From NCBI GenBank assembly GCA_016125405.1, contig WGLW01000023.1:163118-227117 (forward strand): DNA of 64,000 nt. The letters are read 5' to 3'. This DNA comes from Alphaproteobacteria bacterium (lineage in GTDB: Bacteria; Pseudomonadota; Alphaproteobacteria; Caulobacterales; Hyphomonadaceae). Within the stretch, counting starts at the first letter, position 1. The number at the start of each line of letters is the position of its first letter. Position numbers and translations under genes: made by a program. Positions 34,263-39,877 of the stretch are shown here, piece by piece. The notes under the pieces are model-generated. The model was not told the origin of the DNA, made no database searches, and saw nothing but the letters and a program-made list of their open reading frames with translations.

Positions 34263-34459
34263 TCCCCTTCGGACAGCAGGACTATTGCGATGCTAGGATG
34301 CAGCGCAGGCCTGCGCCAGAGCCAGCGCGGCGCATCACATGTGCGTAAGACCCTTGCTCGCGAGACGGGCGCCTGCGGGTGCCTACTGGACCTTGCGTTC
34401 CGCCCTCTCCAACATCCCGCTCGACAACAACGCCTCAGCGGCGACGGGAGACGGGTCAT

Positions 34460-35086
34460 ATGCGCCACGCCGGATTCGCCGCGGTCTTCGCCACAATGAT
34501 TGCGTCAGGGCCCTTGCTGCCCGCGCCCGCTCTCGCTCAACAGGCTGCGCCGGCGGGCGATTATGTCATGGACCCCACCCACGCCAGCCTGAACTGGCAA
34601 GTGCTGCATCAAGGCATGTCCTGGTACACGGCGCGTTTCACCGGCTTTGCGATCGATCTCCATTTCGACCCGTCGGACGTCGCAAAATCGAAAGTCTCCG
34701 CATCCATCGACCCGAAATCGGTCGAGACCGACTACGAAAAGACGCGCCCGGCCGGCAACACGACGGACTTCAACGCCGAGATCGCCACCAATCCGCGCTT
34801 CCTCAACGCTGGCAAGTTTCCGAAAATCACCTTCGTCTCCACCGGCGTGAAGAAGACCGGCGACAAGACAGGCGTGATGAGTGGCAATCTCACCTTCCTT
34901 GGCGTCACCAGGCCCGTCACGCTCGATATCGCCTATGTCGGAGACCGCAACGACCCGCGCATCCAGAAGCACAAGGTCGGCTTCCAGGCGACGGGCTTGT
35001 TCAAGCGGTCTGACTTCGGGATGGAGGCCGGACCGGTGGGAGACGAAGTCAAAGTCGAGATCAACGCGGAGTTCGTACAGAAGTAA
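34460..35086 (+). CDS. YceI family protein
   Basis: DYVMDPTHASLNWQVLHQGMSWYTARFTGFAIDLHFDP ... KITFVSTGVKKTG ... GNLTFLGVTRPVTLDI. Confidence 0.92.
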   Translation: MRHAGFAAVFATMIASGPLLPAPALAQQAAPAGDYVMDPTHASLNWQVLHQGMSWYTARFTGFAIDLHFDPSDVAKSKVSASIDPKSVETDYEKTRPAGNTTDFNAEIATNPRFLNAGKFPKITFVSTGVKKTGDKTGVMSGNLTFLGVTRPVTLDIAYVGDRNDPRIQKHKVGFQATGLFKRSDFGMEAGPVGDEVKVEINAEFVQK

Positions 35087-35119: not shown

Positions 35120-35737
35120 ATGCGCCAACTGGCCGCTCTCGTCCTGCCTCTGGCTCTGGTGGGGTCCTGCACCTCGATGATCCAGGCGAAGCAGACCCTT
35201 CAGACCGTCGGCTCAGGCCAGTACACGCTTGAAAAGCCGCATGGCTCGATTGTCTGGCGCGTCATGCACATGGGGCTGTCGCATTACACCGCCCGGCTGA
35301 CAGACTGGGACGCCACGCTCGACTTTGACCCGAAGAATCCGGCCGCATCCCACATCAAGGCAATCATCAATCCGCTTTCGGTGAGCGCCGAGCATCCGAC
35401 CGACAAGGACTGGAACCGGCACATCGGCGAGGATTTCCTGCTGGGCAAGGAATTCCCGCAGATCGTCTTCGAGTCGACCAAGGTCGAGCCCACCGGTGAA
35501 TTCACCGGCAAGGTGACGGGAAATCTCTCCTTCGCCGGCATGACCCACCCGGTGACCCTTGACGTCACCTACAATGGCGCGATCGCCTCCTCGCCCTTCT
35601 TCGGCGGGCGGAGCCTGGTCGGTTTTTCCGCGCGCGGCGTGATCAAGCGGTCAGAATGGGGCGTCACGAACTACGCCTCAATCGTCTCGGACGATGTCGA
35701 GATCATCATCGAGGCCGAATTCGTGAAGGCCGGTTGA
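35120..35737 (+). CDS. YceI family lipoprotein
   Basis: LVGSCTS lipobox; GSIVWRVMHMGLSHYTARLTDWDATLDFDP ... GNLSFAGMTHPVTLDVTYNG. Confidence 0.92.
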   Translation: MRQLAALVLPLALVGSCTSMIQAKQTLQTVGSGQYTLEKPHGSIVWRVMHMGLSHYTARLTDWDATLDFDPKNPAASHIKAIINPLSVSAEHPTDKDWNRHIGEDFLLGKEFPQIVFESTKVEPTGEFTGKVTGNLSFAGMTHPVTLDVTYNGAIASSPFFGGRSLVGFSARGVIKRSEWGVTNYASIVSDDVEIIIEAEFVKAG

Positions 35738-35819
35738 CGCTGGCGCCGCCCCCTTCATCGGTGCGCACCGGGTGTGGCATGGTCTGGTCGGTCGCGATCC
35801 ACAGCAAAGGGACGGTCGA

Positions 35820-37067
35820 ATGACGGACGCCGCAAGCTACCGCTACAGCACCGTGGCGATTGTCCTGCACTGGCTGATCGCCGCCGCCATCATCGGGATG
35901 ATCGGCCTCGGCTGGTACATGTCGGACCTCGCCAACACCGATCCGAGCCGGTTTCCACTGATCCAGCTGCACAAGTCGATCGGGATCACCATTCTTCTGC
36001 TGTCGGTCGCCCGGGTCATCTGGCGCCTGATGAACCCGCCGCCGCCTGACCCGCCGATGTCGGCCCGGCAGGCTGGGCTGGCGAAATTCGTCCACGTTTC
36101 GCTTTACGTGCTGATCATCGTGATGCCGCTGACCGGCTGGATCATGGTGTCGGCGTCGCCGTCCGGTGTGGGGACGATCCTCTACAACACCGTACCCTGG
36201 CCTCATCTGCCCGGGCTGAGCACATTGCCGCTCGACGCCAAGCGGCAACTCCACGAGCCGCTTGAATTCGTCCACTCCAAACTCGCATGGGTGATCATCG
36301 TGTTGCTAGGTTTGCACGTCGCCGGCGCTCTCAAGCACCAATTCATGGACCGTGACCAGCTCCTGGCGCGGGTGTGGCCCGGACTGTTTGGCCGCACCGC
36401 CGGGCCGGTGCGGAAGACCCGCGGCGCGCTCTGGGCTTTTGGCGGCGCCATCCTCTTCTTTGCAGTGGTCGCTGGCATGGGCGTCGTCGACGGACACGCC
36501 GCGCGGGCCGTCGGGCCTGAAACACCGGATGCAGCAAAGGCCTCGCCGGCGCCAGTGTGGAAAGTTGACCCCGCGCAAAGCTCGATCGTCTTCAAGGCCG
36601 CCTATATGGGCCGCGCCTTCAGCGGAAAATTCGACGACTGGACCGCAAATATCCAGTTCGACCCCGACAAACCGGAGGACGCGCGCATCCATGTCGTCGT
36701 GAAGACCGCTTCGGCCGACACCGGCGAGCCCTATTTCGACGACAGCCTCAAGGAGGGCGACTGGTTCGACATCCGGAAAAACCCGGAGGCCGTGTTCGAG
36801 GTCAACGAAGGTGTGCTGAAGGATGGCCCCACGCAATACGAAGCCACGGGCGTTCTCACGCTGAAAGGCCAGCGGTTCCCGCTCCGGCTGCCCTTCACGC
36901 TCCAGATCGACGGCAAGACGGCGAAGATGCACGCCGAGACGAGCCTGCAGCGCATGGCGCTTGGCATTGGCGCGGGCACGCCGGCCACCGAGCAGGACGA
37001 CAAGACGAAGGAATGGGTGAAGGACGACGTTGCGCTCGTCGTCGATGTCGTCGCCACGCGCCAGTGA
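35820..37067 (+). CDS. cytochrome b561 - YceI fusion protein
   Basis: N-terminal YSTVAIVLHWLIAAAIIGMIGLGW...LHKSIGI...b561 helices; C-terminal VWKVDPAQSSIVFKAAYMGRAFSGKFDDWTANIQFDP YceI domain. Confidence 0.92.
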   Translation: MTDAASYRYSTVAIVLHWLIAAAIIGMIGLGWYMSDLANTDPSRFPLIQLHKSIGITILLLSVARVIWRLMNPPPPDPPMSARQAGLAKFVHVSLYVLIIVMPLTGWIMVSASPSGVGTILYNTVPWPHLPGLSTLPLDAKRQLHEPLEFVHSKLAWVIIVLLGLHVAGALKHQFMDRDQLLARVWPGLFGRTAGPVRKTRGALWAFGGAILFFAVVAGMGVVDGHAARAVGPETPDAAKASPAPVWKVDPAQSSIVFKAAYMGRAFSGKFDDWTANIQFDPDKPEDARIHVVVKTASADTGEPYFDDSLKEGDWFDIRKNPEAVFEVNEGVLKDGPTQYEATGVLTLKGQRFPLRLPFTLQIDGKTAKMHAETSLQRMALGIGAGTPATEQDDKTKEWVKDDVALVVDVVATRQ

Positions 37068-37293
37068 GAGGCGCGCGCGCATACGTTCGCGAATCGGAAT
37101 CAGGTGTGGGTGACTCGATTTTCATTCTGACGCGCGTCTCGAGGCGTCGAAAAAGTGTGTCTCGAAAGTCGCAGCGGCGATACAAAATGAGTCACGCCAA
37201 ACGCGGTCGCGGGCGCCTGTCGGCGCCTTCAACGACGATCGTGATCGCAGTTCGCGGGCGCCAGAACCGGGCGCTGGAACCACGGATGAAGTG

Positions 37294-38286
37294 ATGGACA
37301 AGACGACCGATCACACGCGTCGCGAGGCCGCGCCGGTCGTTCCCGCCGATGACGCGAACCTGGTCAGCGCGAGTCGCATCCTGCTCGACGGAGGTCTGGT
37401 CGCGATGCCGACCGAGACGGTCTACGGCCTCGCCGCGGACGCCACGAACGGACGCGCGGTCGCATCGATTTACACAGCCAAGGGGCGCCCCTCCTTCAAC
37501 CCACTCATCTGCCATGTCGCGGACCGGGCGATGGCGGAAACCTGCGCTGTCTTCTCTCCGCTCGCGCATGCCCTCGCCGACCATTTCTGGCCAGGACCGC
37601 TCACGCTTGTCCTGCCGCGCGCCGCAACCTGTCCGGTGAGCGAGCTTGCCACCGCCGGCCTCGACACGATTGCGGTGCGCATGCCGAAAAGCCCGGCGGC
37701 GCTTGAACTTATCCGGCTTGTCGGGCGTCCGCTCGCGGCGCCTTCGGCCAATCCCTCGGAGCGTCTTTCGCCGACCACCGCCGCCCACGTGGCGGAAAAT
37801 CTCGGCGACCGGATCGACCTCATTCTCGACGGCGGCGTGTGCCGTGCGGGTCTGGAATCGACCATCATCGCGCTCACGAAAACCGGCGCCGCGATGCTGC
37901 GGCCGGGCGCACTCGCACGCTCCGGGATCGAGTTGCTCACAGGTCTGCTCACCGCGCCGGACCCCCACGCAGGCATCGTGGCGCCCGGCATGATGAGGCG
38001 CCATTACGCCCCCCGCGCGCCCCTTCGACTCGATGCCGTGGACGCGCGCGAAGGCGAATCGTTCCTTGCGTTCGGAGCGCCTCCGAAGGGTGTGACCGCC
38101 TCCCTGAATCTCTCCGAGAGAGGCGACCTCGAGGAGGCGGCGTCGAACCTCTTCGCGATGCTTCGGCGCCTCGATGCGACTTCGAACGCGATCGCCGTGG
38201 CGCCGATTCCTGACACCGGACTCGGAGAAGGAATCAACGATCGGCTCAAACGAGCCGCTGCACGTTTCCCCAAAGATGGTGTATGA
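37294..38286 (+). CDS. tsaC: L-threonylcarbamoyladenylate synthase (Sua5/YciO/YrdC)
   Basis: GGLVAMPTETVYGLAADATN, KGRPSFNPLICHV, APSANPSERLSPTTAAHV. Confidence 0.93.
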   Translation: MDKTTDHTRREAAPVVPADDANLVSASRILLDGGLVAMPTETVYGLAADATNGRAVASIYTAKGRPSFNPLICHVADRAMAETCAVFSPLAHALADHFWPGPLTLVLPRAATCPVSELATAGLDTIAVRMPKSPAALELIRLVGRPLAAPSANPSERLSPTTAAHVAENLGDRIDLILDGGVCRAGLESTIIALTKTGAAMLRPGALARSGIELLTGLLTAPDPHAGIVAPGMMRRHYAPRAPLRLDAVDAREGESFLAFGAPPKGVTASLNLSERGDLEEAASNLFAMLRRLDATSNAIAVAPIPDTGLGEGINDRLKRAAARFPKDGV

Positions 38287-38387
38287 GGGATTCGTTGAGT
38301 CGCTTTCTAAGGGAGGTGAGCTCAGCGCAATTGGATGATCGATCTCGCTGAGACGACATCCGAGGGACCATCTAAGGAGACTCCAGA

Positions 38388-38483
38388 ATGGCTGTTAAGA
38401 AAAAAGCTGCGAAGAAGAAAACCGCCGCGAAACCCGCCGCGAAAAAGCCGGCGAAAAAAACCGCCGCGAAAAAGAAGAAGTAA
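38388..38483 (+). CDS. 31-aa Lys/Ala-rich histone H1-tail-like small protein
   Basis: atg..taa = MAVKKKAAKKKTAAKPAAKKPAKKTAAKKKK; strong SD taaggaga at 38372-38379 (8-nt spacing); absent from the supplied track because it is short. Confidence 0.75.
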   Translation: MAVKKKAAKKKTAAKPAAKKPAKKTAAKKKK

Positions 38484-38551: not shown

Positions 38552-38578
38552 TTCCCACCGAACTAGAGTTGAATTCCT

Positions 38579-38616
38579 CGCGCTCATCCGGTCACCGGGT
38601 GGGCGCGAACTCTTTT
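38579..38616 (+). terminator. terminator-like hairpin
   Basis: CGCGCTCATCCGGT-c-ACCGGGTGGGCGCG pairs end to end with G:U wobbles, then AACTCTTTT. Confidence 0.6.
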
Positions 38617-38854: not shown

Positions 38855-39877
38855 ATGGAAATCGTCGCTATTATCGGCGTCATCCTGCTGGCGCTGTTGT
38901 TCGCCTTCCTCATCTACAGAGCAGCGCGCACCTACGACGCCGGCGCGCACGCCACCTTCATCACCGCCAAGGGCGGCGAGTACTATGGCGCCCTGCGCGC
39001 GCCGATCACGCTCTGGAACCCGATGATCAAGGTGCTGAAGGACAAGCACGCCCCCGCCATCTCGATCATCACCCTCGATCCGTCAGGCACGGACTATTTC
39101 GAGAAATCCCTGGTCACCCGCCGCACCGGCGAGGTTTCGCTGCGGGTCCACGTCTGCGCCCCCCGTCCGTTCATCTCCCGGACCTCGGAGAAGAAGCAGC
39201 TGCGCATCAAGACCCGGGTGGCTTTCCAGTTGGATATCGAACGCATCCAGATCCCCAGCCAGATGGAGGCCTTCGGGGCGACGCTGGGCGCGCGCATCGA
39301 AAACCTCTTCGACAACGCCATCGGCCAGTACGAAGACCAGGAAGTTTTCGCCCGGCAGTCCGAGATCGAAGCCTCAGTGCTGCGCCAGCTTCAGGACATC
39401 GAATTCCCGCCAGACCCGATGCACCCCACCGGCATGCCGCTGGGCATAAAGGTCTACGAGGCGATCTTCTCCTATGAACCGGTCAGCTCCAGCGGCGTGA
39501 CCGGAGACGGCGTCCGCGGCCCGATGGCCTACGCCAAGGACGATCTCGACGATCTGGCGGACATGCTGGAGAAGGCCGATCCCAAGACGGTCGAGGTCAT
39601 CATGCGGATGATGGAGATGCAGACCCGGCAGAATATCGTCGAGCTGCTCTGCAAGTCCGGCGGCCTCGTCGCCTTCACGGCGCCTGAACTGGGCCTGTCC
39701 GAACGCCCGATCGACCGCGCGCTCAGCGGCATAAACCGCATGACGCCAGTGGCCGCCGAACCGGCGCCTGCGCCCGCGCAGCCAGCGCAGACGGACGGCT
39801 CGGACACTCCGGCGGCGGCCGCTCCGGTTGACCCGGCCGCGGCCTATTACGGCCTCGGCGCGCCGAAACAGCACTAG
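38855..39877 (+). CDS. SPFH/band-7-like membrane-anchored protein
   Basis: N-terminal TM; long basic/amphipathic domain with IKTRVAFQLDIERI...QEVFARQSEIEASVLRQLQDIEF; Ala/Pro-rich tail. Confidence 0.5.
   Translation: MEIVAIIGVILLALLFAFLIYRAARTYDAGAHATFITAKGGEYYGALRAPITLWNPMIKVLKDKHAPAISIITLDPSGTDYFEKSLVTRRTGEVSLRVHVCAPRPFISRTSEKKQLRIKTRVAFQLDIERIQIPSQMEAFGATLGARIENLFDNAIGQYEDQEVFARQSEIEASVLRQLQDIEFPPDPMHPTGMPLGIKVYEAIFSYEPVSSSGVTGDGVRGPMAYAKDDLDDLADMLEKADPKTVEVIMRMMEMQTRQNIVELLCKSGGLVAFTAPELGLSERPIDRALSGINRMTPVAAEPAPAPAQPAQTDGSDTPAAAAPVDPAAAYYGLGAPKQH

Follow-up and report, generated by a model that had tools for sequence, protein, structure and literature searches.

Bacterial H1-like tails are known mostly as long repeats or as domains attached to other proteins, and the locus described here raises the question of whether such a tail can be encoded as a gene of its own. 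An initial annotation of the window (the whole analysed stretch of DNA, 64,000 nucleotides long) had pointed to a 31-aa Lys/Ala-rich small open reading frame (sORF) with an excellent Shine-Dalgarno (SD) sequence and, about 95 nt downstream, a terminator-like hairpin. These three elements were confirmed (Table 1): translation gives MAVKKKAAKKKTAAKPAAKKPAKKTAAKKKK, with 15 Lys and 10 Ala among its 31 residues, AAGGAG ends 8 nt before the ATG, and the 14-bp hairpin, which is followed by ACTCTTTT, lies 95 nt past the stop codon. The analysis added to that description a conserved GANTC doublet, a covarying 3′ UTR, a constant sua5 neighbour and longer homologues. The genome carrying the sORF comprises 3.86 Mb in 56 contigs.

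Table 1. Positions of the sORF, its flanking elements and its upstream neighbour in the window
Feature	Position	Strand	Basis
sua5 (threonylcarbamoyl-AMP synthase), constant upstream neighbour	37291..38286	+	PF01300/PF03481, synteny
GANTC doublet GATTCgttGAGTCG, 3-nt spacer; second site TGAGTCG fits YGAKTCK	38289..38302	+	kept in 13/13 genomes
Possible leader stem or operator, GTTGAG (38294-38299) / CTCAGC (38321-38326)	38294..38326	+	pairing in the alignment
Leader box GGACCA	38365..38370	+	invariant in all aligned genomes
Shine-Dalgarno AAGGAG within invariant AAGGAGAC	38374..38379	+	100% identical in 13 aligned genomes
sORF, 31-aa Lys/Ala-rich peptide	38388..38483 (stop included)	+	frame kept in relatives, mostly synonymous changes
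3′ UTR closing stem GGTCGGC / GCCGACC with inner helix	38498..38551	+	helices 1 and 2 of the covariation analysis
Terminator-like hairpin, 14-bp stem (38578-38608) and outer GAGT/ACTC helix, 5′-side bulge between them	38566..38612	+	helices 3 and 4; terminator scan

A conserved small protein gene

Among the ORFs of 20-100 aa in the window, the sORF was the only one with at least 35% Lys, and no ORF of this kind was found in five first-order Markov shuffles of the window. Since the frame is additionally kept across species and its codon changes are mostly synonymous, a chance ORF was ruled out. The initial annotation had looked to conservation of the frame and SD among relatives, and this proved strong: start, stop, reading frame, SD and terminator hairpin are kept in 14 of the 15 genus genomes examined (window included) and in G023, a genome of the sister genus. 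The relatives compared, mostly MAGs, belong to the family Hyphomonadaceae. Used as a DNA query, the intergenic stretch gave matches in 13 of the remaining 14 genus genomes as well as in G023; the sole genus genome in which no unit was found, G012, is 77% complete. Thirteen of the 15 genus members, and likewise G023, each carry a single copy of the leader pattern GGACCA-N0-2-YHAAGGAGAC-N0-8-ATGGC, which gave no matches in the controls and is absent from the other 89 family genomes. In G009 the unit is present, the contig beginning inside the leader. A scan of the collection with the same pattern recovered such units in Hyphomonadaceae bacterium UBA7672, Alphaproteobacteria bacterium 32-64-14 and Hyphomonas sp. 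ih12.

Every copy of the unit contains an uninterrupted Lys/Ala-rich frame. In the 27-aa form, represented by 10 orthologues, seven of the nine variable codons changed purely synonymously, compared with 54 of the 234 possible single changes, which indicates constraint at the protein level. The orthologues measure 23, 27, 31, 43 or 82 aa (23-43 aa within the genus) and differ in steps of whole codons with their K/A/P composition retained. The other frames overlapping the sORF are not kept in relatives; those on either strand, such as a 162-aa frame on the + strand, were rejected, their open extent differing from one relative to another. Therefore, the sORF is a genuine, evolutionarily conserved small protein gene, and its coding nature is well supported.

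It was also verified that the 31-mer has no family match in Pfam, NCBIfam or PDB, and a search for paralogues within its own genome returned weak matches only. Structure prediction without an alignment reported no secondary structure (pTM 0.14) and was uninformative. No tRNA or tmRNA was found, and a known RNA family was rejected after an Rfam search gave only chance-level matches.

Upstream motif, leader and 3′ UTR

The GANTC doublet forms a block of near-total identity amid a variable stretch. The pair, GANTCnnnGANTC, is kept in all 13 genomes readable at this point, where it lies between -87 and -103 relative to the ATG. In G008/L094 the first site changes from GATTC to GAGTC, so that only the free N differs, the site still reads GANTC and the remainder is unchanged, and the second site with its flanks, TGAGTCG, is invariant in 13 of 13. 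This site fits YGAKTCK, the longer form of the motif that has been tied to activation by GcrA in Caulobacter; Brevundimonas showed no preference of this kind (PMC7987155). The Caulobacter mipZ promoter likewise has two juxtaposed GAnTC sites and loses activity when GAnTC is mutated, and mutation of GAnTC sites lowers the activity of such promoters by 60-80% (PMC3667746). The likeness to mipZ-type GcrA/CcrM promoters consists of paired, adjacent GANTC sites before the gene, together with a fit to YGAKTCK (PMC3667746, PMC7987155). At the sORF, a consensus scan recognised no -10 or -35 hexamers near the pair.

The genome encodes GcrA (PF07750, E 1.7e-48), and two genes of the GcrA family were observed in it (G000:C18:54343-54837 and 85936-86322), the second match being much weaker (E 6.9e-15). 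A RAMA domain (PF18755, E 7.4e-21) occurs in a 391-aa frame of the same genome, which, judged by this domain alone, would be a CcrM-type methylase. Genome-wide, GANTCnnnGANTC occurs at 13 places, close to the number that a density of roughly one GANTC per 520 bp would produce, so it is only the conservation of the doublet that is telling. The mipZ gene of this genome was examined as an internal control for the GcrA motif and offered no clean promoter pair: its GANTC occurrences are confined to the reading frame ahead of the domain match. The conserved pair at the sORF suggests that CcrM methylation and GcrA may time the transcription of the sORF in the cell cycle, a testable lead. To our knowledge, no gene of this sort has been reported to be controlled by GcrA.

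Closer to the start codon, GGACCA could pair with AUGG in the start codon region (38365-38392), which would place the SD in the loop; because the box is invariant, this pairing lies beyond a covariation test. The inverted repeat CTCAGCG (38321-38327) / CGCTGAG (38346-38352) described in the initial annotation is present, but its pairing is not conserved, and in relatives the CTCAGCG arm pairs instead with GTTGAG at 38294-38299.

Downstream of the stop codon, the RNA structure is well supported. In an alignment of 15 sequences, four helices (29 pairs) reached 95.6% paired cells and a covariation score of 0.309, with 14 pairs changed on both sides; none of 500 shuffles equalled it in paired percentage, in double-change counts or in score, and slid versions scored at most 0.115. 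Deriving and scoring the structure on one and the same alignment favours it, but the effect size is clear. Helices 1 and 2 had 88% and 93% of their cells paired and six pairs with compensatory changes, and in the 14-bp stem, which also carries compensatory changes, all cells were paired. The hairpin, followed by a short U tract, is likely a terminator. A covariance model of it, run against 105 family genomes, found one full-length copy per genome, always beside the sORF. The weak extra matches inspected, which were all but two of the weakest (G113 and G003:C116), were unrelated sequences or the same hairpin on the other strand; the apparent copies in G068 and G012 were rejected as unrelated, their positions being within or next to a glutaredoxin-like frame and downstream of an S1-like one (both named by reading).

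Neighbourhood and likeness to H1-like proteins

Wherever enough sequence is available, the unit sits after sua5, which is usually preceded by a gene for a cytochrome b561-YceI fusion. In the window, G010 and G004, the automated upstream frames are overlapping wrong ones, and the leader sequence continues from the same sua5 end. The genes downstream of the sORF belong to several families, lie on both strands and differ between genomes. Given this constant upstream and changing downstream context, the sORF seems to be expressed independently of the genes that follow it. In the window the fusion gene occupies 35772-37067 (+), adjoined by two further frames that read as YceI-like (34379-35086 and 35120-35737). 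The frame at 38855-39877 (+) encodes a 340-aa membrane-anchored protein with no Pfam or NCBIfam family above cut-off; it is kept in the genus and in three related genera, not always beside the sORF.

When the surroundings of sua5 were checked in 28 genomes from 16 other genera, a K/A-rich ORF followed it only in G023 and in G020, which belongs to a third genus. The G020 ORF encodes 99 aa and has its own SD and its own classical terminator, with a 3′ UTR unrelated to that of the genus sORF; it is a positional and compositional match, in a type of sequence with which orthology is not provable.

The 31-mer does not match the H1-like models PF07382 (HC2), NF038052 or NF038053, and the longer homologues gave only scores below cut-off, the 82-aa homologue scoring 29.3 bits (E 9e-7) against NF038053, an H1-like DNA-binding protein model with a cut-off of 80. 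The sORF family shares with H1-like proteins a basic, repetitive sequence that is rich in K/A/P and varies in length without leaving the frame. In chlamydial Hc2 and Bordetella BpH1, the likeness lies in the Lys/Ala-rich composition and in a length that varies by in-frame repeats, which in Hc2 are Lys-rich (PMC2848022), whereas these proteins measure about 165-237 aa. The C-terminal KPAA tails of AlgP and PhaF in Pseudomonas are likewise K/A/P-rich, disordered, highly basic and variable in repeat number. However, the AlgP tail exceeds 150 aa and follows a 124-aa helical domain, while the sORF peptide is the tail alone: an N-terminal helical domain of the AlgP/PhaF type is absent, and the start with its SD is conserved. 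Because the cut-offs are not reached and the AlgP-type domain is lacking, we assign the sORF product to neither the HC2 nor the AlgP family, and in sequence of such low complexity H1-like homology looks the same as convergence. The sORF is, in this sense, a micro-gene of the bacterial H1-tail kind, unrecognised by family profiles.

Two other proteins of related composition were observed. The same genome encodes a second, longer H1-like protein of about 134 aa (G000:C55:73978-74340; locus L106, about 1363-1764), in which an Arg/Lys/Ala tail accompanies an N-terminal part free of repeats (PF07382 HC2, E 1.4e-8, below cut-off). In G027, from another genus, a 102-aa free-standing KKPAAKK protein (L030:1242-1547) with a sub-cut-off HC2 score follows a NUDIX-like frame (by reading), has a different leader and is possibly an independent tail-only protein.

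Proposed function and alternatives

A short ORF followed by a terminator-like hairpin could be a leader peptide, in which translation of the Lys and Ala codons controls transcription of the downstream gene by attenuation. This is highly improbable and largely refuted by synteny, since no downstream gene is constant and many lie on the opposite strand, the constant sua5 lies upstream, and the length grows to 82-99 aa. It is less remote, and still quite unlikely, that the transcript acts mainly as a structured regulatory RNA (a 3′ UTR-derived or dual-function sRNA) with a secondary peptide: the covarying helices and the single hairpin per genome speak for it, but the coding part is under protein-level constraint, Rfam gave nothing above chance, and the KA-rich ORF at the same place in G020 lacks this 3′ UTR. 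Regarding the upstream motif, the second GANTC site lies partly within the possible leader stem, pairing with downstream CTCAAC, and the conservation of TGAGTCG could thus reflect a leader stem or operator (GTTGAG/CTCAAC) rather than GcrA/CcrM control. This is a possible if somewhat unlikely account: pairing holds in 97.4% of the cells of the GTTGAG/CTCAGC stem, one pair being compensated, but the stem is broken in G023, where both GANTC sites remain, and the first GANTC lies outside it and is kept even where its N changes.

The partner of the peptide is a separate matter. Its main partner could be rRNA, mRNA or polyphosphate instead of DNA, in which case it would serve as a counter-ion or as a factor of granules or condensates; charge alone, in the absence of a fold, confers no specificity, and AlgP with its KPAA tail is located at polyphosphate granules (PMC9239181). 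Yet nothing at the locus points to polyphosphate or ribosomes, and the link to sua5, a tRNA modification gene, is positional, so that we hold this reading to be rather unlikely. Considering the H1-tail composition, the DNA binding of AlgP KPAA peptides in vitro (PMC9239181), the repeat variation of Hc2 and the absence of a fold or family, charge-driven binding to a polyanion is proposed, with DNA as the most likely one; by this analogy, the peptide probably binds DNA or another negatively charged polymer, and such a biochemical role is likely.

The reading that we favour, with moderate confidence, is a minimal H1-tail-like polycation whose charge would let it bind DNA (or RNA or polyphosphate), with perhaps GANTC-timed transcription and with a structured 3′ UTR. 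The sORF would give rise to a minimal unfolded polycation equivalent to an H1-like tail without the globular domain, which would associate by charge with the sugar-phosphate backbone of DNA, possibly with RNA or polyphosphate too, and locally compact or screen that backbone. Its length would be free to vary while charge density is kept, CcrM methylation and GcrA would set the cell-cycle timing of its transcription, and the structured 3′ UTR would end or stabilise the message. The initial annotation had suggested that a free-standing tail peptide could be a nucleoid or RNA-condensing factor; the H1-tail-like polycation stands as the best reading, and condensation itself we infer. A bolder version, in which this free-standing histone-tail peptide would rank among the smallest candidate nucleoid proteins and be produced as a CcrM/GcrA-timed wave of polycation at a set stage of chromosome replication, is offered tentatively and is rather unlikely as a whole.

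A conserved gene that encodes nothing but the tail, and whose product at a single locus spans lengths of 23 to about 100 aa, offers a natural experiment on the amount of charge that the task requires. Should the GANTC pair prove functional, it would also tie a polycationic peptide to the methylation clock of alphaproteobacteria.
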